Origin: Natrinema versiforme
Lineage (GTDB): Archaea; Halobacteriota; Halobacteria; Halobacteriales; Natrialbaceae
Reading direction: 5' to 3'
NCBI RefSeq assembly: GCF_005576615.1
Contig: NZ_CP040330.1
Span: forward strand, 620,001-684,000
Length of the DNA: 64,000 nucleotides
In this document: piece by piece, positions 26,392-56,001 of the stretch
How positions within the stretch are numbered: position 1 is the first letter of the stretch
Layout: every line of letters starts with the position of its first letter
The notes under the pieces: model-generated
Told to the model about the DNA's origin: nothing
The model's database searches: none
The model's input: the letters and a program-made list of their open reading frames with translations, nothing else
Made by a program: the position numbers and the translations under genes

Positions 26392-26820
26392 TCACTCGAC
26401 GTCGTCGTGAGTCAGTAGCTGCCGGGACCGCTCGCCGTCGGGCTCGTCGTAGGTGACGACCTCGAGGAGGTTGCCGTCCGGATCGAGGAAGTAGAACCCC
26501 TCGAACGCCCCCCAGTCGTACGGCCCCTGTTTCGGGAACTGTTCGTCGAGGTCGGCCACCAGCGCGTCGTAGCTCCCGCGGTCGGTCTCGAACGCGAGAT
26601 GAGCTTTGTCGAGCGGGTGCTCGAGTCCGCGGTCGCCCCAGTTCTCGGCACGGCCGGTTTCGGCGAGCGTGACGACGGTCTCGCCGGCCCGGAACATCGC
26701 GTGTGCGCCCCGAAAATCCGCGGGCGGTCTGACCAGTTCGAGTTCGAGAGTGTCGCGGTAGAACTCGTAGCAGGGCTCGAGGGCGTCGACATCGACGTTG
26801 ATGTGATCGACGGCATCCAT
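26392..26820 (-). CDS. VOC-family (glyoxalase/dioxygenase-fold) protein
   Basis: A 142-residue protein of the vicinal oxygen chelate fold with two beta-alpha-beta modules. Characteristic segments are DHINVDVDALEPCYEFYRD at the start and FYFLDPDGNLLEVVTY near the end, including the Glu metal ligand. The substrate is unknown. I chose the ATG at 26820 because the family begins with MDxVDHI. Confidence 0.86.
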   Translation of the reverse strand: MDAVDHINVDVDALEPCYEFYRDTLELELVRPPADFRGAHAMFRAGETVVTLAETGRAENWGDRGLEHPLDKAHLAFETDRGSYDALVADLDEQFPKQGPYDWGAFEGFYFLDPDGNLLEVVTYDEPDGERSRQLLTHDDVE

Positions 26821-26941: not shown

Positions 26942-27304
26942 TCAGTCCTGATCGACCGCAGACGGCGTTCGCCGCCAGTCGGGTTCCTCCCGCGGCGGTG
27001 CGAGGACGCCGATGCCGACCGCGTCCTCGTCGGTCCGGTTTTCGGCCCCGTGGCGCTCGTCGCTCGAGAACATGTACGCGTCGCCGGCCGTGAGCGGGTA
27101 CTCCTCGCCTTCGACGATGGCGGTGAGTTCCCCCTCGAGGACGAAGCCGATCTGTTCGTTCGCGTGCGTATGAGACGGTAGCGTGGCCCCCGATTCGATT
27201 TTCCAGTAGACCATGCCTGCTTGCTCCCCAGCAGGAAGGTCCGCGAGGGAGACCCCGTCGGCGACCTCCTCGAACTCCGCGTGGCCCGTCGATATCCGTT
27301 TCAT
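26942..27304 (-). CDS. Cupin-domain protein
   Basis: A 120-residue single-domain cupin. The metal-binding motif is HTHANEQIG (His 45, His 47, Glu 50) with a second-motif His in SSDERHGAE. Small cupins may be enzymes or ligand-binding regulators. The gene faces away from the first binding-protein-fold gene, and the 84-base gap between them carries a palindrome, so a shared control site is plausible. Confidence 0.85.
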   Translation of the reverse strand: MKRISTGHAEFEEVADGVSLADLPAGEQAGMVYWKIESGATLPSHTHANEQIGFVLEGELTAIVEGEEYPLTAGDAYMFSSDERHGAENRTDEDAVGIGVLAPPREEPDWRRTPSAVDQD

Positions 27305-27338
27305 GGGAACGGGGCTCACTCACCACGTCTGCACTGAT

Positions 27339-27360
27339 AAACGTATCATGAAAACGTTTT
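27339..27360. promoter_or_regulatory. Palindrome over the promoter between cupin and binding-protein-fold genes
   Basis: AAAACGTTTT at 27351-27360 is a perfect 10-base palindrome, and an AAACGT at 27339-27344 pairs with the ACGTTT at 27354-27359. The CGTTTTAA end sits about 28 bases before the start codon at 27388 and could be its TATA region, so a bound repressor would cover the promoter. TTTATCA on the other strand (27335-27341) may serve the cupin gene. Confidence 0.4.
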
Positions 27361-27387
27361 AAGCCGCTCTCCGGTGTGCATTGTTCC

Positions 27388-28281
27388 ATGTTAGCAGACC
27401 AATCGGTCCGGCTGTTCCACCTCCCGTTCTCGTTCATGCTGCCACAGACGGTGGCGGCCGAACGGGGCTACTACCGCGAGGAGGGACTCGCGGTCGACCT
27501 GGTCGAGCGAGACAGACGCGACGTCTCGGTCAAATACATCCCCGCGGAGGAGACGTTGACGGGCGACTACGACGTGGATCTCTACCCCATCTGCAAGTGG
27601 GAGAGCATCCGCCGGACGTGGGACATGGACGACGGCCGGGTCGTCGCGAACGGCACCTTCGCGAACCTCCCGTATACCGTCTTCACTCGCCCCGATTCCG
27701 CGATCGAGTCGCCAGCCGATCTCGCGGATGTGCCGGTCGGGGTCAATCTGCGGACCGGCCAAGAGTACACCGCCCGCAAAGCGCTCGAGGACCACGTCTC
27801 CCCCGACGAGATCGACCTCGTCGGCTGCGGGATGCCGACCGACCGACTCCGAGCGCTTCACGAGGGACGCGTCGACGCCGTGACGCTCATCGACCCCCAC
27901 AGCACCCTCGCGGACCACCTCGGGTTCCGACGCCTCCTCGAGTACGACAACCACATGGGCATCGTCGGGAGCGAGGACATCGACCGGGACCTGCTCGAGG
28001 CGTTCCTGCGCGCTTACGGCCGTGCGGTCGCGGACATCAACGCGAACCCCGACGCCTTCCGCGGGACGTACCTCGAAATGCTCGAGGCCGACGCCGCGGT
28101 CGCGCCCGACCTGTTCGACGATGTCGACGTCGCGGCCGTCCGCGAGGAGATCACCGTGCCGCGGTACGAGGTCCCCGACCCCGTCGACCGCGAGGAACTC
28201 GACGACCACCTCGACTGGATGCGTGACCGCGGACTGATCGACGAGAACGCGGCGATCGACGACATCGTCGCGCCGCTGTAA
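27388..28281 (+). CDS. Periplasmic-binding-protein-fold protein (NMT1/THI5/SBP type) without signal peptide, copy 1
   Basis: A 297-residue protein of the type 2 substrate-binding fold, as in taurine/sulfonate/nitrate binding proteins and NMT1/THI5 proteins. The N-terminus (VRLFHLPFSFMLPQTVAAERGYY) enters the first strand directly; there is no signal peptide, Tat motif or lipobox, so the protein should be cytosolic. No transporter genes are adjacent. It is first of three such genes. Related cytosolic enzymes with this fold exist (4,5-dihydroxyphthalate decarboxylase, MqnA/MqnD, THI5), so an enzyme is possible; the substrate cannot be named. Confidence 0.82.
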   Translation: MLADQSVRLFHLPFSFMLPQTVAAERGYYREEGLAVDLVERDRRDVSVKYIPAEETLTGDYDVDLYPICKWESIRRTWDMDDGRVVANGTFANLPYTVFTRPDSAIESPADLADVPVGVNLRTGQEYTARKALEDHVSPDEIDLVGCGMPTDRLRALHEGRVDAVTLIDPHSTLADHLGFRRLLEYDNHMGIVGSEDIDRDLLEAFLRAYGRAVADINANPDAFRGTYLEMLEADAAVAPDLFDDVDVAAVREEITVPRYEVPDPVDREELDDHLDWMRDRGLIDENAAIDDIVAPL

Positions 28282-28322
28282 GCGGTTCCGGCGATTCACA
28301 CCAACTACCCCACACACCCACT

Positions 28323-29339
28323 ATGACCGAAATCGACATCAGTTCACAACAGGCCGCGATCGACGAGTATCAGGGCGACCCCGGCGACCGCCCCGTCCTG
28401 CGGGCCCGATTCGAACACAACGGCAGCCCGCGGTACATGCTCTACACGATCAAGCGGTTCGGCTACGATCACGACCACGGCTTTCACCTCGACCTGCGAC
28501 TCGTCTCCGACGAGTTAGACGAGGGCCGGGAGACCGTCGAGGCGAAACTGCAGGACGGTGACGCCGACCTGATCGACATCGACTACATCTCGACGGCCCG
28601 CGAGCGCGCCGACGGCGCGCCGATCGTCGCCTTCCACCCCTACGGCCAGACCGTCGGCGGCCTCGTCGTCCCCGAGGACTCCGGGATCGAGGGCCTCGCG
28701 GACCTCTCCGGCCACCGGATCGGCGTCGTCAGACGCCTCGACAAGAACTGGATCCTCGTCCGGGCGGCCTGCCGGGAGGCCCACGGCTTCGACCCCGACG
28801 AGACAGCCACGCCGGTCGAAGCCGGCTCGAAGGTCGAACTCACGCGGCTGCTCGAGGACGGTGAGGTCGACGCCATCTTGCAGTTCTGGCAGATCGTTCC
28901 GGAGATCGTCGAGACCGGGCCGTACCGCGAGGTGCTGCCGATGTCGACGCTGGTCGATCGCCTCGCCGGCACCGAAGCCGACGCCGATCGCCCGATCCCC
29001 GTCTCGACGTTCCTGACGAGCGAGACGTACCTGACCGATCACCCCGATGCGGTCCGCGGGTTCCGCGGCGCGTTTCAGGATGCCGTCGAGCGATTACAGC
29101 GCGACGACGGCCTCTGGGACGAGATCGGCGAGCGGCTCATGTACGAGGACGATCCCGAGGTCGTCCGAGCCGTCCGCGACCGGTGGCGCGCGATGGTCGT
29201 CGCCGACTGGGACGAGACCACTGTCGAGGGAATGGAACGGCTGTTCGACCACCTCGAATCGGTCGCCGGCGCGGATGCACTCGGCGTCGAGGAGCTCCCC
29301 GAGGGGCTGTTCCGACCCGAACTCGAGGTGGAGGCATGA
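28323..29339 (+). CDS. Periplasmic-binding-protein-fold protein without signal peptide, copy 2
   Basis: A 338-residue paralogue of the preceding gene, with a similar order of segments (GADLIDIDY-like strand, then IEGLADLSGHRIGVVRRLDKNW and DGEVDAILQFWQ). The N-terminus is hydrophilic (MTEIDISSQQAAIDEY), again without a secretion signal. It follows copy 1 by 41 bases and overlaps copy 3 by ATGA, so all three are likely one transcript and could be subunits of one complex. Confidence 0.82.
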   Translation: MTEIDISSQQAAIDEYQGDPGDRPVLRARFEHNGSPRYMLYTIKRFGYDHDHGFHLDLRLVSDELDEGRETVEAKLQDGDADLIDIDYISTARERADGAPIVAFHPYGQTVGGLVVPEDSGIEGLADLSGHRIGVVRRLDKNWILVRAACREAHGFDPDETATPVEAGSKVELTRLLEDGEVDAILQFWQIVPEIVETGPYREVLPMSTLVDRLAGTEADADRPIPVSTFLTSETYLTDHPDAVRGFRGAFQDAVERLQRDDGLWDEIGERLMYEDDPEVVRAVRDRWRAMVVADWDETTVEGMERLFDHLESVAGADALGVEELPEGLFRPELEVEA

Positions 29340-30316
29340 CGGACGCCCCCCTCTCGTTTCAGCTCAACTGGGAGCCGAACGGGTTTCAGTCGCCGTACTT
29401 CCTCGCCCGCGAGGCGGGCTTCTACGAGGACGAAGACCTCGAGGTCGAGTTCGTCGAGGGCCACGGCTCGCCCTACGCGGCCAAACGCGCCGCCCGCGGC
29501 GATGCGGATATCGCGCTCGCCGGCGCGAGCGCCGTCTTGGCGAAACAGAGCGAGGGGTTCGAGCCGCTCGCGGTCGCGGCGGTGACCCAGAAGACGCCGG
29601 CGGCCGTCTACACGCTGCGGGACGTCTTCGGCGAGGAGCTTACCGAACCCGCACAACTCGCCGGCCGAACCGTCGCGCCCTCCGCGACGAAGACGCGGAT
29701 CCTCACGGCCCAGTTACTCGAGGACGCGGGCATCCGCGACGAGGTCGACCTCCTCGAGGTCGATCCGCACACGCACCACCGCGTCCAGCACAAGGTGATC
29801 GACGGGACGGTCGACGCCGCGGTCGGCGTGGTCACCAACGGGATCGAAATCGGGCGAGAGCACGACCGGACGCCCGACGAACTCCCGATCGGCGAGTATC
29901 TCGACATCTACGGGATGACGCTCGTCACCGGTCCCGAGTTCGCCGACGAACGACCCGAGACGATCCGATCGTTCCTCCGGGCGACCGCCCGCGGCTGGGC
30001 CGCCGCGACCCGCGATCCGGAGCGCGCGATCGACGTACTGGTCGACCGCAACGCCACGCTCGAGCGCAACCGGGAGATCGAGCGACTGAAGTTCGAGACC
30101 GCCGCCCATCAACTCCAGTTCACGCCGTACGTCCGGGACCACGGCTGGGGCGCACAGGACGGGGATCGCTGGCGGCGACTCGGCGAGACGCTCTCGGAGA
30201 CGGCGCTGCTCGAGGGGGAGATCGACCCGGACGCGGTCTGGACCGACGAGTTCCGGCCCGCCGACGAGGCGCTCGTCGCGGAGTACGCCGACCGCGTTCG
30301 GCCGACGGCGGAGTAA
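29336..30316 (+). CDS. Periplasmic-binding-protein-fold protein without signal peptide, copy 3 (closest to NMT1/THI5)
   Basis: A 326-residue protein that starts MTDAPLSFQLNWEPNGFQSPYF, the standard opening of mature NMT1/THI5/TauA-type binding proteins, followed by LAREAGFYEDEDLEVE and ARGDADIALAGASAV. In exported relatives this opening follows a signal peptide; here the ATG lies immediately before it. It overlaps copy 2 by ATGA. Of the three copies it is the one that looks most like a conventional binding protein. Confidence 0.84.
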   Translation: MTDAPLSFQLNWEPNGFQSPYFLAREAGFYEDEDLEVEFVEGHGSPYAAKRAARGDADIALAGASAVLAKQSEGFEPLAVAAVTQKTPAAVYTLRDVFGEELTEPAQLAGRTVAPSATKTRILTAQLLEDAGIRDEVDLLEVDPHTHHRVQHKVIDGTVDAAVGVVTNGIEIGREHDRTPDELPIGEYLDIYGMTLVTGPEFADERPETIRSFLRATARGWAAATRDPERAIDVLVDRNATLERNREIERLKFETAAHQLQFTPYVRDHGWGAQDGDRWRRLGETLSETALLEGEIDPDAVWTDEFRPADEALVAEYADRVRPTAE

Positions 30317-30353: not shown

Positions 30354-30854
30354 TCACCGATCGTCTCGGGACCGGTCGGGAGCCGCCGTCGCGTCGCTCT
30401 CACCGGACCCGTCGTCGCGATCGGGGTCGGCGCGGGTGCAGCCGCGCTCGTCGAAGGTTGCACACGCGTCGAGCAGCGTTTTGACCGGCGCCGACGGGTG
30501 GTCGAGGCGAAGCGTTCCGGTCCGCCGATCGTACGAGACGACGCCGGCGTCCGCCAGCATCGGGAGCTCGACGTGGACGAGCGATATCTCAACGGTCTCG
30601 CGGCGACGTTCGGACACCTCCTTCGGGGACGTGCGATCTAACCGAGCGGCGACGCGTCTAGCGAGACCACCGACGTCCGCGACGTCGTCCTCGCGGAGAC
30701 AATAGAGGACGCAGCGTCGGCGCCGCTCGCTCAACACCCGTACGAACTCGTCGAGGGCGGGGACGCCGCCGTCGGTTACCGTCGCGGAGGCCGCGTCGCC
30801 CTCGATAGCTGCGTCGCGCCCGCTCCGCTCGGAGCCGCCGTTCCCTTCGACCAT
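30354..30854 (-). CDS. Small HTH regulator (DUF7344-like winged helix)
   Basis: A 166-residue protein with a central winged-helix domain (LSERRRRCVLYCLREDD... then ISLVHVELPMLADAGVVSYD), a haloarchaeal pattern I associate with DUF7344. The tails are acidic and low complexity. The ATG at 30854 is preferred over an upstream GTG because a TATATATTT box lies about 26-34 bases upstream on this strand, which would give a leaderless transcript. It is convergent with the third binding-protein-fold gene, 37 bases apart. Confidence 0.8.
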   Translation of the reverse strand: MVEGNGGSERSGRDAAIEGDAASATVTDGGVPALDEFVRVLSERRRRCVLYCLREDDVADVGGLARRVAARLDRTSPKEVSERRRETVEISLVHVELPMLADAGVVSYDRRTGTLRLDHPSAPVKTLLDACATFDERGCTRADPDRDDGSGESDATAAPDRSRDDR

Positions 30855-48293: not shown

Positions 48294-49163
48294 TCAGACG
48301 TCGTCCAGCAGGTCGTACAGCGCGCGCTCGGTGTCGATCGTCAGGAGGTGGGCGCGGTACTCGGCAGTCGCCTGCACGTCCGAAACGAACGCCTCGTCGT
48401 CGACCGTGGTTCCGGCCTCGGCCGCCGCCGCGGTGATCGTCTCCTCGGAAACCGCCGCTCCCTCGAGTTCGTCCTCGACGGCCGGCAGTCTCGTCGGCGT
48501 CGTCGTCGCGCCGGTGACGGCGACCCGAGCCTCCTCGATCGCCTCGCCGTCGGTGCGGAGCCAGACGCCGACGCCGACCATCGCGTAGCCCGAGAGCGGA
48601 TCGCGACGCTTGCGGTAGGCGCTCACGGCGTCGTCGTCGGTCGGGAGCCGAACGGCAGTGACGATCTCGTCGTCGTCGACCGCCGTCTCGAACGGCCCTT
48701 CGAAGAGATCGGTCGCGTCGATCGTCCGCTCGCCGTCCGCCCCGCGCACCTCGAGCGCCCCGTCGAGTGCGAGCAGGGCGGCCGGCGGGTCCGAGCGCGC
48801 GTCGCCGTGGGCGAGGTTGCCGCCGATCGTGCCGCCGTTTCGGACCTGCGGGTCGCCCAACTCGGCCGCGGCGTCGGCGAGCGCGGCCGCGTGCTGCCGG
48901 ACGGGTTCGGACTCGGCGATCTCGGCGTGCGTGGCGAGCGCGCCGACCGAGACGGCGGTTCCGTCGTCCGCCGCTTCGATCGCATCGAGCCCGCTCAGTT
49001 GGCCGATATCGACGAGCGCCGGCGGCGATTCGTCTCCCGTCTTCATCCGCGGCAACAGCCCGTGCGCGCCGGCGACCAGTTCGGCCCCGTCGTGGTCGCC
49101 GAGTAACTCGAGGGCGTCGTCGACGCTGTCCGCTCGGTAGTAGTCGAAATCGTTCACGTACAT
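48294..49163 (-). CDS. coxM: Molybdenum hydroxylase FAD subunit (CoxM-like)
   Basis: A 289-residue FAD-binding subunit of the xanthine oxidase/CODH family. FAD-binding segments are LVAGAHGLLPRMK near residue 29-41 and GGTIGGNLAHGDARSDPPAALLAL near 107-130. It is the last gene of coxS-coxL-coxM and its start overlaps the coxL stop by one base (TGATG). The ATG at 49163 begins MYVNDFDYYR, the usual start for the family. Confidence 0.92.
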   Translation of the reverse strand: MYVNDFDYYRADSVDDALELLGDHDGAELVAGAHGLLPRMKTGDESPPALVDIGQLSGLDAIEAADDGTAVSVGALATHAEIAESEPVRQHAAALADAAAELGDPQVRNGGTIGGNLAHGDARSDPPAALLALDGALEVRGADGERTIDATDLFEGPFETAVDDDEIVTAVRLPTDDDAVSAYRKRRDPLSGYAMVGVGVWLRTDGEAIEEARVAVTGATTTPTRLPAVEDELEGAAVSEETITAAAAEAGTTVDDEAFVSDVQATAEYRAHLLTIDTERALYDLLDDV

Positions 49164-51550
49164 CAGCGATCGCCCTCCGTGGCTCGCCAGACCGATTCCG
49201 GCGTGATCGGCATGTCGAGGTGGTCGACGCCGAACGGCTCGAGCGCGTCTGCGACGGCCGACACGATGGTCGGTGTCGCCGCGATCGTCGCCGACTCGCC
49301 GACGCCCTTCACGCCGAGGGGGTTGTGCGGGCTCGGCGTCACCGTGCTGTCCGTTTCGAAATCGGGCAACTGCGTCGAGTGGGGGACGGCGTACTCGTCC
49401 ATCCGACGGGTTTGGAGATGCTCGTCGTCGTCGTACGCTGCGCCCTCGTAGAGCGCGGCACCGATCCCCTGCGCGATCCCCCCGTGGACCTGTCCCTCGA
49501 CGATCATCGGATTGATGATCTCCCCGCAGTCGTCGACCGCGACGTAGCGTCGGATCTCGATATCGCCCGTTTCGGGATCGACCTCGACGACTGCGACGTG
49601 GGTCCCGAAGGGGTAGGTGAAGTTCTCCGGATCGTAGAAGTTGGTCTCCTCGAGGCCGGGGTCCATTCCCTCGGGCAAGTCGTGTCCGAGATACGCCTCG
49701 TGAGCGATCGTCTGGATGTGGAGCGACCGATCCGGTGCGCCGGCGACGCGGAATTCGCCGTCCTCGAACTCGATGTCGTCGACGCTCGCCTCGAGTTGAT
49801 GGGCGGCGATCCGACGGGCCTTCTCGCGGACCTCGCGGGCGCCCCGGGCGATGGAGCCGCCGCCGACCGACGCGCTCCGGCTGCCGTAGGTCCCCATTCC
49901 CTGCGGGATCCGATCGGTGTCCCCCTCGACGACGTCGACGTCGTCGACGGAGACGCCGAGTTCCTCGGCGGCGATCTGGGCGTACGTCGTTCGATGGCCC
50001 TGCCCCTGATCCGCCGTCCCCGCGAGGACCGTCACCGATCCCGTCGAGTCGAACCGGACGATCGAACTCTCCCAGCCGCCGGCCTGCGCGCCGAGATCCC
50101 CCGCGAGTCCGGACGGCGAGAGCCCCGCGGATTCGACGAAGTTGCCGATGCCGATACCGATGTATCGGTCCTCGTCTCGAAGCTCGCGCTGGCGCTCGCG
50201 CAAGTCGTCGTAGTCGACGTGCTCGAGCGCCAGATCCATCGCACGTTCGTACTCGCCGCTGTCGTAGACCAGCGCCGCGGCGGACTCGTAGGGGAACTCG
50301 TCGGGGGGGACGAGGTTCCGCCGCCGCAGTTCGGCCGGGTCCATCTCGAGTTCCCGGGCCCCGGCGTCGACGAGTCGCTCGATCACGTAGATCCCCTCGG
50401 CCCGGCCCGCGCCGCGATAGGCGTCGACGGGCGTCGTGTTCGTGAACGCACCGACGACGCGGCAGTGGATCGCCGGAATCGCGTACTGGCCCGAGAGGAC
50501 GGTCGCGTAGAGATAGGACGGCGTCGCGGTCCCGAACTGCGAGAGCTGCGCACCGAGTCCGGCGTGCGTTTCGACGCGAACCCCGCGGATCGTCCCGTCG
50601 TCGTCGAGTGCGATCTCGCCGGTCGTCACGTGATCTCGCCCGTGACAGTCGGTCAGGTAGCTCTCCGAGCGCGTCGCCTGCCACTTCACCGGCCGGCCGA
50701 GTTGCATCGAACACCAGGCCGTGACGGCCTCGTCCGGGTAGTGGTAGATCTTGCTGCCGAAGCCGCCGCCGACCTCGGGAGCGATCACCTGAATCTTGTT
50801 CTCCGGAAGGCCCAGCGTCCCCGCCGAGAGCAGCATTCGATGGAGATGCGGGTTCTGACTCGTCATCCATAGGCGCAACTTCCCCGTCGCGTCCTCCCAG
50901 TCGGCGAGGGCGGCTCGCGGCTCCATCGCGTTCGGAATGATGCGCGGCTGTCGGAGGTCGACGGTCGCGACCCGATCGGCGTCGGCGAACGCTTCGTCGG
51001 TGGCCTCCTCCTCACCCAGTTCGAAGTCGAAGGCCACGTTGTCCGCGGCCTCCTCGTGAACCGGCGGCACGTCGCGCTCGACCGCCTCGACCGGATCGGT
51101 CACGTGCTCGAGCGGTTCGTACTCGACCGCGATCCGCTCGAGCGCATCGTGGGCGACGTGTGGCGTCTCCGCGACGACGGCGGCGACGGCGGTCCCCTCG
51201 TGGCGAACCTTGTCCGTGGCGAGCATGCGATATTGCGGCTGCACGAGGCCGGGGAGGTCCCACGCGGTCGGAATCGTGTTCGGAACGCCGCTTTCGACGA
51301 CGTCCTCGCCCGTGTACACCGCGACGACGCCATCCATCGCGGCCGCGTCGCTGGTGTCTATCCGCTCGATTCTCGCGTGGGCGTGATCGGACCGGCGGAT
51401 AGCCAGATGCGTCGTTCCGCGCAGGGAGATGTCGTCGGTGTAGTCCCCGGACCCGGTCAGCAGCGGAACGTCCTCGCCGCGTTCGATGGCGGAGCCGAAG
51501 GCGCCACCGCTGTCGGCGCCGGACTCACCGCTCGAATCGGCGTCGCTCAT
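49163..51550 (-). CDS. coxL: Molybdenum hydroxylase large subunit (CoxL-like, AYRGAGR type)
   Basis: A 795-residue molybdopterin-cytosine-dinucleotide subunit. The active-site loop reads AYRGAGR at about residues 378-384; true aerobic CO dehydrogenases (form I) have AYxCSFR instead, so this is a form II or other hydroxylase, not a proven CODH. The catalytic Glu lies in GVKGVGES near residue 750. Other family segments are VAPEVGGGFGSK and GTADQGQGHRTTYAQIAAEELG. It overlaps coxS by ATGA. The substrate, perhaps a purine or N-heterocycle, is not evident. Confidence 0.92.
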   Translation of the reverse strand: MSDADSSGESGADSGGAFGSAIERGEDVPLLTGSGDYTDDISLRGTTHLAIRRSDHAHARIERIDTSDAAAMDGVVAVYTGEDVVESGVPNTIPTAWDLPGLVQPQYRMLATDKVRHEGTAVAAVVAETPHVAHDALERIAVEYEPLEHVTDPVEAVERDVPPVHEEAADNVAFDFELGEEEATDEAFADADRVATVDLRQPRIIPNAMEPRAALADWEDATGKLRLWMTSQNPHLHRMLLSAGTLGLPENKIQVIAPEVGGGFGSKIYHYPDEAVTAWCSMQLGRPVKWQATRSESYLTDCHGRDHVTTGEIALDDDGTIRGVRVETHAGLGAQLSQFGTATPSYLYATVLSGQYAIPAIHCRVVGAFTNTTPVDAYRGAGRAEGIYVIERLVDAGARELEMDPAELRRRNLVPPDEFPYESAAALVYDSGEYERAMDLALEHVDYDDLRERQRELRDEDRYIGIGIGNFVESAGLSPSGLAGDLGAQAGGWESSIVRFDSTGSVTVLAGTADQGQGHRTTYAQIAAEELGVSVDDVDVVEGDTDRIPQGMGTYGSRSASVGGGSIARGAREVREKARRIAAHQLEASVDDIEFEDGEFRVAGAPDRSLHIQTIAHEAYLGHDLPEGMDPGLEETNFYDPENFTYPFGTHVAVVEVDPETGDIEIRRYVAVDDCGEIINPMIVEGQVHGGIAQGIGAALYEGAAYDDDEHLQTRRMDEYAVPHSTQLPDFETDSTVTPSPHNPLGVKGVGESATIAATPTIVSAVADALEPFGVDHLDMPITPESVWRATEGDR

Positions 51551-52026
51551 CGGTGCTCACCCGACTGTTCGGCCGCGGCCTCGATCGCGTCGACGATGTT
51601 CTGGTAGCCGGTACACCGACAGAGGTTGCCCTCGATCGCCTCTCGAATTTCCTCGCGGGACGGGTCGTCGGCCTCCCGCAAGAACGTGTCGGCGCTCATG
51701 AGCATCCCCGGCGTACAGTAGCCACACTGGAGCCCGTGCTGTTCCTGAAACTGCTTCTGCAGGGCCGAGAGATCGCCGTCGTCGGCGAGTCCTTCGACGG
51801 TCTCGATCTCCGAGCCGTCGGCCTGCACGGCCAAGCGAGTACAGGACTTGATCGTCTCGCCGTTCTCTCTGACGGTACAGGCGCCACACCGCCCCGTCTC
51901 ACAGCCGACGTTCGCCCCGGTATACCCGAGTTCCTCTCGAAGCGCCGTCACGAGCAACGTCCGCGGTCGGACGGTCAGGTCGTGCTGTTCTCCGTTCACT
52001 GTTACCGATATACCGTGTGTCGTCAT
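51547..52026 (-). CDS. coxS: Molybdenum hydroxylase iron-sulfur subunit (CoxS-like)
   Basis: A 159-residue subunit with two [2Fe-2S] clusters. Cysteines are at 42, 47, 50 and 62 (plant-ferredoxin type) and at 101, 104, 136 and 138 (alpha-helical type, GLQCGYC and LCRCTGYQN). It is the first gene of the minus-strand operon coxS-coxL-coxM. Length and cysteine spacing are normal. Confidence 0.94.
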   Translation of the reverse strand: MTTHGISVTVNGEQHDLTVRPRTLLVTALREELGYTGANVGCETGRCGACTVRENGETIKSCTRLAVQADGSEIETVEGLADDGDLSALQKQFQEQHGLQCGYCTPGMLMSADTFLREADDPSREEIREAIEGNLCRCTGYQNIVDAIEAAAEQSGEHR

Positions 52027-52533
52027 TCATTTTCCTCCGGTTTGTAGCGTCACTCGAGTCAGCGGACTGTTCACGATACCCGTGATACAATCCCACACGA
52101 CATAGTCACCACATTACGGTAAATAGGTTCGCAACGGAATTCCGCCGCTGACCCGTACTGGTCCACGGGTGACGCCTCTCCGTCGCCGATTTCCGACCCG
52201 AGTTTTCGAGGCGGGTTTCCCGTCATTCGGACGCGGATGCCGTCAGTCCGGGTCATCGGACGGCTCGTCGATATCGCGGACGAGACCCGGGCCGCCGGTC
52301 GCGACGAGTGCCGCGCGAGGAATCGTGACCGGCCGCCAGTGCCCGCTGTGAGTGCGACCCCGGCACCGATATCTCGGCCTGCTCGTTCGACCGACCGTTC
52401 GCCTCGGTGACTATTTCTCGAGGAAGATTTACCGTCTGGAACACCGTGGAACGAGACGAACTCCCAATGGATCTGCGAACCAATAACTATCGATGGCTCG
52501 GAGCGGACCGATGCCGGTTCACCGCGAGCGCGC
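52027..52533. other. Divergent intergenic region between cox structural and maturation genes
   Basis: About 507 bases between the coxS start (minus) and the coxD start (plus), expected to hold both promoters. AT-richer stretches occur near 52100-52130 and 52418-52432 (ACTATTTCTCGAGGAAG). A short minus-strand frame ending at about 52242, reading HWRPVTIPRAALVATGG, looks faintly protein-like but is not supported by a start and good length. No gene is called. Confidence 0.45.
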
Positions 52534-53487
52534 ATGACTGAGCCGACTGCCACCCCGTTCGCGGAGTATACCGAGGCGGATCTCAGACGGGTCTTCGACC
52601 GAACGGGGTACGTCGCCGAGGACGACATCCTGATCCCGGTGTTGCTCGCGCTCCGGCTCGGGAAGCCGCTGCTCATCGAGGGCGAACCCGGGAGCGGGAA
52701 GACGGAGTTAGGAAAGGTGCTCGCGGACGGGCTCGAGACCGACCTCGTTCGGTTACAGTGCTACGAGGGGTTGGCGGCCGAGAACACGCTCTACGAGTGG
52801 AACTACACGAAACAGCTGCTCTCGGTGCAGGCCGGTGAGCGCGGGGTCACCGACGACGGTTCGGTGTTCGACGAGGAGTATCTGCTCGAGCGGCCCCTGC
52901 TCCGGGCGCTCTCGGGCGACCGCGACCGCCCCGCCGTCCTCCTCATCGACGAAGTGGACCGCGCCGATCGGGAGTTCGAGGCGCTGTTGCTCGAGTTCCT
53001 CTCCGATTTCCAGGTCTCGGTACCGGAACTGGGGACGATCGAGGCGTCGGTTCCCCCGATCGTCCTGCTCACGTCGAACCGAACGCGCGGCCTCAGCGAC
53101 GCGCTCAAGCGGCGCTGTCTGTACCTCCACGTGGAACCGCCGTCGTTCGAAAAGGAACGAGAGATCGTCCAGCGGAAAGTGCCGGAGCTGGACGGCGCGA
53201 CCGCCGCGGAGATCTGTGGCGTCGTCCAGCGGCTCCGCGAGGAGCCCCTGCTGAAACGGCCGGGGATCGCGGAGACGTTGGACTGGTCTCGCGCGCTCCT
53301 CGAGCTTCGATCCGCGAGCGAGGACGGGAGTAGCGAACCCGCGGCGTCGCTTTCGCCGCAGCTGATCGATCGGACCCTGTCGTGTCTGTTGAAGGAGGTC
53401 GAAGACGCGTCCCGTATCGACGACGAGCTCCTCGAGACCCTCGCCCGGGCGGCCCGCGACGCTCGGGAGCGGACGGAGGCGCAGTGA
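52534..53487 (+). CDS. coxD: MoxR-type AAA ATPase, CoxD-like maturation factor
   Basis: A 317-residue AAA ATPase of the MoxR family. Walker A is GEPGSGKT at residues 50-57 and Walker B LLIDEVD near 135. In carboxydotrophs CoxD helps to introduce the copper-sulfur part of the active site; in other molybdenum hydroxylase loci similar ATPases assist maturation with a VWA partner. The next gene starts in a GTGA overlap. The assignment as CoxD is by context. Confidence 0.88.
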   Translation: MTEPTATPFAEYTEADLRRVFDRTGYVAEDDILIPVLLALRLGKPLLIEGEPGSGKTELGKVLADGLETDLVRLQCYEGLAAENTLYEWNYTKQLLSVQAGERGVTDDGSVFDEEYLLERPLLRALSGDRDRPAVLLIDEVDRADREFEALLLEFLSDFQVSVPELGTIEASVPPIVLLTSNRTRGLSDALKRRCLYLHVEPPSFEKEREIVQRKVPELDGATAAEICGVVQRLREEPLLKRPGIAETLDWSRALLELRSASEDGSSEPAASLSPQLIDRTLSCLLKEVEDASRIDDELLETLARAARDARERTEAQ

Positions 53488-54797
53488 CCGATCCCCCCGA
53501 GTCCGCCGGTCTCGAGATCGTCCGGGACCACGTCGTAGACGAGGTAGTGAGGCTCGCCGACGCGCTCCGGGCCGAGGGCGCGACCGTCCCGCCGACGGCG
53601 AGCGTGACGGCCGCTCGAGCCCTCGCAGCGCTCACCGAGTACGACGAGCCGACGGTCCGTGTCGCCCTTCGGGCGGCGCTGATCTCTCGACGGCCGGACA
53701 TCGCCGCGTTCGAACGCTGCTTTCCGGCCTTCTGGGCCAGGTTCACCGGCGAGGGTACCGCCGAATCGCCTCCGGCCCGCGACGGGGCGACGCAGCCCTT
53801 CGCGGTGCCACGGGGCGGTGCCTCGAGTCGGGACGGGGGTGGCGATACCGCGGACTCGCTCGAGCGGACCGAACGCGCCCGGTCGTCCGTGACGGAATCG
53901 AACGCGTCCGTCGGCGGAGACGACGAACCCGACACCGAAACGGACCGAAGGCACGGGTTCCACGCGCTGTCCACGCGGACCGGTCGCTCGGAACCGCTCG
54001 CCGTCGACGCCGTCACGGCGACGGCCGCGGACGTTCGGGAGCCGCTCGAGCGGATCGGTCGCGTACTGGGACGGAAACGGGGGCGACGCTTCACGGATGC
54101 GCCGACGGGCTCCGAACTGAACGTCCGCCGGACGCTGCGCCGGAGCTTCGGGACCGGCGGAACAGTTCTCGACGTCGAGCGATACGACTACGATCGAACG
54201 GCGGTGAACGCCGTCGTCCTCGTCGACGTGAGCCGTTCGGTCCTCGACAGCGTCGATCGCGGGTTTCTGCTGGGCGTCCTTCGGCAGCTGCACGCCGACT
54301 GGCGATCGGTCCGCATCTTCTTCTTCGATACCAGTCTGCGAGAGGTCACGGCGCAGTTCGACGAACCGTCGTCCGAACGCGCGATCGCGGCCCTCGAGCG
54401 GGCCGAGACCGAGTGGGGCGGTGGCACCAAGATCGGGCACGCGCTCTCGACGCTTCGGAACGACTATCCCGAGGTCGTCGACCGAGAGACGGCCGTGTTC
54501 GTGATCAGTGACGGCCTCGAGGTCGGCGAACTCGATCGGCTCGAACGGGGGATGAACTGGCTCTCGGCGCGAGCGGACGCGGTCCTCTGGCTCAATCCCT
54601 TGGCGGCCGACGCCGAATACGAGCCCGCCTGCCGCGGCATGGCGGTCGCCGCTCCGTTCGTCGACGGACTGTTCGGGTTCGCCCGGCCGACAGACCTCGA
54701 GGAGATCGCCAGACAGCTCTCGCTTCGCGGCGTTCACGGTCGGATCGGCTACGAGTACGACGGGCGCGGCGACGCGAACGCGGACCGGCCGTCCTGA
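53484..54797 (+). CDS. coxE: VWA-domain protein, CoxE-like
   Basis: A 437-residue protein. The C-terminal half has a von Willebrand A domain with MIDAS motif DVSRS at residues 248-252, and the middle carries the DUF58/CoxE-like segment (GTGGTVLDVERYDYDR). The N-terminal 200 residues are variable and include an acidic stretch. MoxR ATPases pair with VWA proteins as chaperone-like systems. It overlaps coxD by 4 bases, GTG start at 53484. Confidence 0.87.
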   Translation: MTDPPESAGLEIVRDHVVDEVVRLADALRAEGATVPPTASVTAARALAALTEYDEPTVRVALRAALISRRPDIAAFERCFPAFWARFTGEGTAESPPARDGATQPFAVPRGGASSRDGGGDTADSLERTERARSSVTESNASVGGDDEPDTETDRRHGFHALSTRTGRSEPLAVDAVTATAADVREPLERIGRVLGRKRGRRFTDAPTGSELNVRRTLRRSFGTGGTVLDVERYDYDRTAVNAVVLVDVSRSVLDSVDRGFLLGVLRQLHADWRSVRIFFFDTSLREVTAQFDEPSSERAIAALERAETEWGGGTKIGHALSTLRNDYPEVVDRETAVFVISDGLEVGELDRLERGMNWLSARADAVLWLNPLAADAEYEPACRGMAVAAPFVDGLFGFARPTDLEEIARQLSLRGVHGRIGYEYDGRGDANADRPS

Positions 54798-54806
54798 CCA
54801 CGAGAA

Positions 54807-54844
54807 AGTATAATTATACGAGCGGCCAAGTCATGATATGACTT
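54807..54844 (+). promoter_or_regulatory. TATA box and inverted repeat at the xdhC start
   Basis: AGTATAATTATA at 54807-54818 lies 20-31 bases before the ATG at 54838, so transcription should start near the codon. AAGTCAT (54828-54834) and ATGACTT (54838-54844) form a perfect 7-base inverted repeat with a 3-base spacer across the start codon, a possible operator or early RNA hairpin. Confidence 0.55.
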
Positions 54845-56001
54845 CGCAAGACTGGAGCGTGCCCGAGACGGAAGTCCTCGGCGCGGTCCGCGAGGCGTGT
54901 ACGTCGGATCGGCGAGCGGTTCTCGCGACGATCGTCCGCGTGGAGGGAAGCGCGTACCGCCGGCCGGGGACGAAAATGCTGATCGACGGCGACGGGGACG
55001 GCGTCGGGAGCCTCACCGCGGGCTGCCTCGAGGACGAAGTTCGCTCGCTCGCGGCGTCCGTCCTCGAGTCCGGGCGGCCTCGGCTCGAGCGATTCGACTT
55101 GAGCGGAGACGACGACGTGTGGGGACTCGGTATCGGCTGTAACGGCGTGATCGATATCTTCCTCGAACCACTCACCGACACACTCGAACCACCGCTGAGC
55201 GTAGTCGACGACGGCGGTGACTGTACGGTCGTCACGGTCCTCGAGAGCGAGGACGCGGCGTTCGCCCGCGGCGATCGTGCGTACTACCACGCCGACGCCG
55301 GCGAGTTCCGTGAGCTATCCGGGACGTGGCCCGACGACGTGACGGCCCGGCTCGAGGAGTCCGCATCGGCGCTCGCGCCGGCCGGCACCGCGGAGACGGT
55401 CACGATCGACAGGGGCGGTTCGGCGGTGACGCTCTTTCTCGACGGAATCGCCGCGCCGCCGGAGCTCGTGGTCTTCGGGTCGGGACACGATGTCGCCCCG
55501 GTCGTCCGGTTGGCGACGCTGGCCGACTTTCGGGTGATCGTCGTCGGCTTCCGCGGGGCCGTCGCGACGAGCGACCGGTTCCCCGCCGCGGATCGCACCG
55601 TCTCGACGGCGCCCGCACGCATCCGCGAGACGCTCGAGTTGGACGAGCGGACGTACGCCGTCGTCATGAGTCACAACTTCGTGGACGATCGGCTCGCCCT
55701 CGACGAACTCGTGCGGTCGCCGGTCCCCTACGTCGGTCTGATGGGACCGAGCAAGCGCTTCGAGGAAATGCTCGAGGCGTTCGCCGAGGAGGATCGAACG
55801 TTCACGGAGGCGGAACTCGCGTCCGTCTACACGCCGATCGGACTGGATCTGGGGAGCGAGACACCGCATCAGATCGCGATGAGCATCGTCTCCGAGGCCC
55901 TCGCCGTCCACAACGACCGCTCGCCGGCCCATCTCAGGGACCGGGACGGCGCGCTCCACGACCGAGCCGATATCGAACTCGACGACCCGCCACAGCAGTG
56001 A
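54838..56001 (+). CDS. xdhC: XdhC/CoxF-family molybdenum cofactor insertion protein
   Basis: A 387-residue protein of the XdhC/CoxI family, which binds molybdenum cofactor, helps to sulfurate it and inserts it into xanthine dehydrogenase-type enzymes. The N-terminal part has GSAYRRPGTKMLI and SLTAGCLEDEVRS; the C-terminal Rossmann part has VFGSGHDVAPVVRLA from about residue 211. It supports a sulfido-type molybdenum hydroxylase for the neighbouring coxL product. Its own TATA box lies inside the coxDE-xdhC block. Confidence 0.9.
   Translation: MTSQDWSVPETEVLGAVREACTSDRRAVLATIVRVEGSAYRRPGTKMLIDGDGDGVGSLTAGCLEDEVRSLAASVLESGRPRLERFDLSGDDDVWGLGIGCNGVIDIFLEPLTDTLEPPLSVVDDGGDCTVVTVLESEDAAFARGDRAYYHADAGEFRELSGTWPDDVTARLEESASALAPAGTAETVTIDRGGSAVTLFLDGIAAPPELVVFGSGHDVAPVVRLATLADFRVIVVGFRGAVATSDRFPAADRTVSTAPARIRETLELDERTYAVVMSHNFVDDRLALDELVRSPVPYVGLMGPSKRFEEMLEAFAEEDRTFTEAELASVYTPIGLDLGSETPHQIAMSIVSEALAVHNDRSPAHLRDRDGALHDRADIELDDPPQQ

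Follow-up and report, generated by a model that had tools for sequence, protein, structure and literature searches.

Three adjacent genes of Natrinema versiforme, here called A, B, and C, are part of a conserved archaeal gene set that is tied to a PQQ-enzyme system. Our preferred interpretation, held with middling confidence, is that A, B, and C, together with a cupin and a protein of the VOC (glyoxalase/dioxygenase) superfamily, constitute a cytosolic cofactor-supply module for the PQQ-dependent (lanthanide-type) alcohol dehydrogenases of Halobacteria. The functional part of this interpretation is drawn from homology, synteny, and co-occurrence. Searches of the open-access literature turned up no paper that deals with the gene trio or with PQQ in Halobacteria.

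In the window (the whole stretch of 64,000 nucleotides that was analyzed), gene A occupies positions 27388–28281, gene B 28323–29339, and gene C 29336–30316, all on the plus strand. The reading frames of 297, 338, and 326 codons and the ATGA overlap between B and C (29336–29339) lie where an earlier note, made from the window alone, had placed them. The type 2 binding-protein fold that it assigned to the three products is also borne out: A, B, and C each match Pfam NMT1 (PF09084; E values of 4e-14, 4e-11, and 4e-32, respectively), the AlphaFold models of A (pLDDT 90.4) and B (85.7) adopt this fold, and C matches the ThiY and THI5 chains by sequence. The solved folds nearest to the model of A are those of SsuA (Z 22.6), ThiY (19.7), and PqqT (18). 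Protein A carries the invariant motifs YP-x-CKWES and RTGQEYT, and C is devoid of cysteine. Pairwise similarity among the three is weak and, judged from their sequences, they are not recent duplicates. Chance open reading frames can be dismissed, since the trio genes are 60–95% identical across several families of Halobacteria.

No Sec or Tat signal or lipobox was found in A, B, or C or in the proteins of ∼60 homologous loci, a count that is approximate because it combines two collections in which some loci represent the same genome. Only 12 open codons precede A, the ATGA overlap sets the start of C, and the aligned N-termini of the ∼60 relatives begin directly at the fold, while lipoprotein homologs of C and homologs of PqqT, which served as controls, do display a hydrophobic signal. 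A missed upstream start that would add a signal is thus ruled out by in-frame stops, the ATGA overlaps, and the aligned N-termini, and the claim that the three proteins lack export signals stands. The companion claim that no transporter is encoded nearby holds for the window, where no ABC permease or ATPase was seen among the flanking genes (by Pfam for some, the rest read by eye), but not for all relatives: of the roughly 60, about ten encode an ABC importer next to the trio.

The annotation makes A, B, and C substrate-binding proteins of ABC transporters, a label to which the about ten loci with an adjoining importer lend some support. We assign a slim chance to the three being ordinary importer components exported by an unrecognized route: the adjoining importer has its own signal-bearing lipoprotein as substrate-binding protein, signals are missing from the trio across about 60 loci, and an importer of this kind is absent from at least 23 of the trio genomes. 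The label, applied to all three genes of the set, is probably wrong.

The trio belongs to a larger unit. A divergent cupin gene (26942–27304, minus strand, 120 aa) with a complete metal-binding motif (conserved residues H45, H47, E50, and H85) is conserved beside it, and the VOC gene (26392–26820, minus strand, 142 aa), which the earlier note had omitted, is part of the same conserved unit; its residues H6, H74, and E120 are invariant, and the metal-ligand sets of both proteins are complete. Natrinema has the VOC gene on the far side of the cupin gene; in the other genera VOC directly follows C, which gives the order cupin (divergent), A, B, C, VOC. Among 61 loci read with a simple and admittedly crude gene caller, A was recovered in 60, C in 57, VOC in 54, and cupin in 52, and the trio is conserved as a unit. 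Some loci depart from this arrangement. Tandem B genes (A-B-B′-C) occur in L059, L061, L067, L069, L071–L073, L147, and L150, which represent one genus (Haloplanus among the named records), and in the Halolamina loci L062, L070, and L143 A and B are present with no C beside them. In the window, a gene for a DUF7344 protein (Pfam; 30354–30854, minus strand) directly follows C; among the relatives read, it is not a conserved neighbor of the trio. Farther along the window, positions 48294–56001 carry genes whose translations resemble a three-subunit molybdenum hydroxylase of the CO-dehydrogenase/xanthine-dehydrogenase type, followed by MoxR-, CoxE-, and XdhC-like genes.

The region between A and the cupin gene (27305–27387, no strand) contains the dyad ATAAACGTATCATGAAAACGTTTTAA. 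Its general form, ATAAA-N15/16-TTTAW, was found in 63 of 71 regions upstream of A and 60 of 65 regions upstream of the cupin gene, and in none of 780 control genes; as the pattern was derived from part of the same regions, the controls rather than the hits are the test. The dyad fits a common divergent promoter/operator of A and cupin, and these counts support the joint control of the trio and the divergent cupin gene that had been proposed at the outset. Elsewhere it was found at three sites, all before the gene of the importer lipoprotein. A common operator for trio and dehydrogenase was also considered and rejected, as the dyad is absent upstream of the dehydrogenase operon.

The sole strong relative of B among solved structures is PqqT (E 5e-27 by sequence and 2e-31 by profile). 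The model of B superimposes on PqqT (PDB 9b1v; VIA-align) with a Z score of 33.3 and 2.2 Å over 295 residues, compared to a Z score of 23.1 for the next protein; PqqT has no closer known relative than B. PqqT has been crystallized with PQQ and with PQQ plus Gd3+, and a K142D change alters its lanthanide binding (PMC12828617). By alignment, and allowing for the numbering of 9b1u (29–326) versus 9ooz (2–299), this PQQ/metal-site residue Lys142 corresponds to Lys141 of B, and Phe188 of B corresponds to Tyr161 of PqqT. Residues K141, W143, F188, and W189 are invariant among 35 B proteins; the motifs in which they lie, DKNW (140–143) and FW (188–189), are described as invariant too, and DK-x-W and the second Trp are also kept in bacterial relatives of B. 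All six of the bacterial relatives inspected are encoded beside a PQQ methanol/ethanol dehydrogenase and ABC permease/ATPase genes, and the two that were read through have N-terminal signals. That B would hold PQQ or a near relative of it is the best supported part of our interpretation.

A survey of 391 genomes of Halobacteria (B at E ≤ 1e-100, dehydrogenase at E ≤ 1e-60) located B in 54 genomes, a dehydrogenase homolog in 68, and both in 52. A dehydrogenase is thus present in 52/54 genomes with the trio versus 16/337 without it, or in 45/54 versus 14/337 if only closer dehydrogenases (E ≤ 1e-145) are counted; Fisher's test affords a p value of about 1e-47 for the association, a figure that ignores relatedness. 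Within Natrinema, the dehydrogenase occurs in 12/12 genomes with the trio and 0/9 without. Of the exceptions, G045 has a dehydrogenase homolog in two frames that scores just below the threshold, and G153 has none, and its C gene carries an in-frame TGA. The distance between the trio and a PQQ β-propeller gene is about 10 kb or less on plasmids of Natrinema, Halomarina, and Halococcus; in the window genome trio and dehydrogenase are ∼2.1 Mb apart. In seven of the trio genomes the only dehydrogenase is a divergent one (36–45% identity), which lacks the vicinal cysteines (see below) in the copies read (L095, L116, and L117). A genome scan with A returned 37 loci, all from Halobacteria by title except one MAG titled only ‘Euryarchaeota’, and none of the trio outside Halobacteria; the scan was pattern based and may miss distant ones. 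Stand-alone relatives of A (27–32% identical) are found outside PQQ clusters in Alphaproteobacteria and Halococcus (L155:7959-8870, L156:7956-8870, and L157:7980-8897), those of Alphaproteobacteria being plasmid borne.

Protein C is 37–38% identical to the lipoprotein substrate-binding protein of the ABC importer in relatives. This C-related importer is encoded in all 16 dehydrogenase genomes without the trio, in 29 of the 52 that have both trio and dehydrogenase, and in just two genomes without dehydrogenase. Because every trio-less dehydrogenase genome has it and 23 trio genomes do not, the two seem to supply one and the same ligand, either as alternatives or jointly. The importer is accompanied by a 429-aa protein (L030:2692-3981 and homologs) that fuses a winged-helix (MarR-like) domain to an NMT1 domain and is about 30% identical to C; it likely uses the common fold to sense a ligand in the cytosol.

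The haloarchaeal dehydrogenase is most similar to PedH and XoxF. Among the 53 copies read, GGEYG, GNP, and W-D-Y-D are kept in nearly all, and a vicinal-cysteine motif (CC...NRG) is present in 48; we take the W-D-Y-D to match the aspartate pair of the lanthanide-type enzymes XoxF and PedH. None of the 53 has a signal peptide, and in many the stop-to-stop frame extends only about two codons beyond the alignment. The homolog of the window genome (G000:C2:2766497-2768203, equivalent to L094:8998-10707), which has the WDYD motif and no signal peptide, is preceded by a gene for a ∼290-aa protein and followed by one for a cupredoxin with a Tat signal. The protein that regularly precedes the dehydrogenase (∼300 aa) has no Pfam or NCBIfam match worth naming. 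The exported cupredoxin suggests that the dehydrogenase may act outside the membrane, possibly after export in folded form with a partner. PqqC is absent from the 16 genomes searched, with a positive control recovered, and homologs of PqqE score only below the cut-off; the classical route to PQQ is thus not in evidence from these, the two genes searched. The window genome itself has trio and dehydrogenase, with no C-related importer, no PqqC, and no PqqE above the cut-off, which raises the question of the cofactor source in an archaeon with PQQ-type dehydrogenases.

In the proposed module, B would do in the cytosol what PqqT does in the periplasm and hold PQQ or a quinone closely related to it; C would bind the ligand brought in by the related ABC importer, where one exists; and A, VOC, and cupin would handle the cofactor, modify it, or complete it ahead of its insertion into the signal-less dehydrogenase. 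Both the ligand and the step performed are our inference: the set may carry, insert, salvage, or make the cofactor, and a carrier or inserter and a maker are about equally likely. The observation that dehydrogenase genomes have trio or importer, always at least one, would speak for a source rather than just a carrier, and oxidative chemistry would be a fitting task for the two metalloproteins. A bolder version, which we consider rather doubtful, is a haloarchaeal synthesis of PQQ or a PQQ-like quinone that is unrelated to PqqA-E, with the three fold subunits, VOC, and a cupin oxygenase performing or scaffolding the chemistry; this would explain why trio genomes need no importer and why trio-less dehydrogenase genomes always have one. 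Several observations weigh against the module. Only B is PqqT-like, with C nearest to ThiY/THI5 and A close to no characterized protein; Halolamina has A and B without an adjacent C; the dehydrogenase operon lacks the dyad and is distant from the trio in the window genome; the dehydrogenases of seven trio genomes are divergent; and the cupredoxin hints at an enzyme outside the membrane.

The main rival places the five proteins on the substrate side. Trio, VOC, and cupin would convert an imported or internal compound to an alcohol for the PQQ dehydrogenase, whose aldehyde product would pass to a neighboring aldehyde oxidoreductase. Genes for AOR-like proteins, aldehyde dehydrogenases, or molybdenum hydroxylases adjoin many trio loci, with which such a role would also fit; the VOC and cupin metal sites are intact, and the fold has been recruited for the enzymes DszB, MqnA/D, and dihydroxyphthalate decarboxylase, all of which are among the fold matches. 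We nonetheless judge the substrate-side role unlikely, since only about one locus in three has an AOR-like gene nearby and the specific relative of B is a protein that binds a cofactor, with the Lys/Trp site conserved and bacterial kin in PQQ clusters. A small chance goes to A, B, and C being cytosolic ligand sensors that regulate the pathway: the winged-helix/NMT1 fusion illustrates that the fold is used for sensing here, but the three proteins have no DNA-binding domain, and three co-transcribed sensors plus two metalloproteins would be unusual. Least credible is a THI5-like thiamine-pyrimidine (HMP-P) synthase within the trio. C does match yeast THI5 (E 2e-10) and ThiY, but the gene distribution tracks the PQQ dehydrogenase, and the active-site residues, His66 and the cysteine motif, are absent from C, on which grounds a THI5-type synthase was rejected. 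The earlier note had proposed an undescribed cytosolic enzyme or sensor. That proposal is partly supported, by the absence of export signals, the conserved unit, and the joint control with the cupin gene, while no catalytic residues were identified and those of THI5 are missing from C; its reading was also incomplete, as the relation of B to PqqT and the association with PQQ dehydrogenases lie outside the coordinates that it covered.

If the cofactor-supply interpretation is correct, binding proteins of the extracytoplasmic kind have been relocated to the cytosol to handle a cofactor. A possible reason is that cytosolic enzymes, and those exported by Tat, can be loaded with their cofactor only in the cell interior. 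Among the closest known systems is PqqT of Methylobacterium extorquens (PDB 9b1u, 9b1v, and 9ooz), which is 27–29% identical to B. The two have in common the fold, the ligand-site Lys and Trp, and an association with PQQ dehydrogenases, but PqqT is periplasmic, whereas B lacks both a signal peptide and neighboring transporter genes and is accompanied by A, C, VOC, and cupin. In the PQQ ABC-import clusters of Alphaproteobacteria, with a substrate-binding protein, permease, and ATPase beside a XoxF/Ped-type dehydrogenase, the relative of B likewise adjoins a PQQ dehydrogenase; those systems are extracytoplasmic and have permease and ATPase but no trio. The cytosolic enzymes MqnA, MqnD, 4,5-dihydroxyphthalate decarboxylase, and DszB are built on the same fold as the trio but are weaker fold matches (Z 13–20), and no shared genes or motifs were found. 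THI5 (HMP-P synthase) and ThiY (formylaminopyrimidine-binding protein) also have this fold and C is the nearest of the three to them by sequence, yet C has neither a His at the position of THI5 His66 nor any cysteine, and no thiamine genes were seen near the trio.
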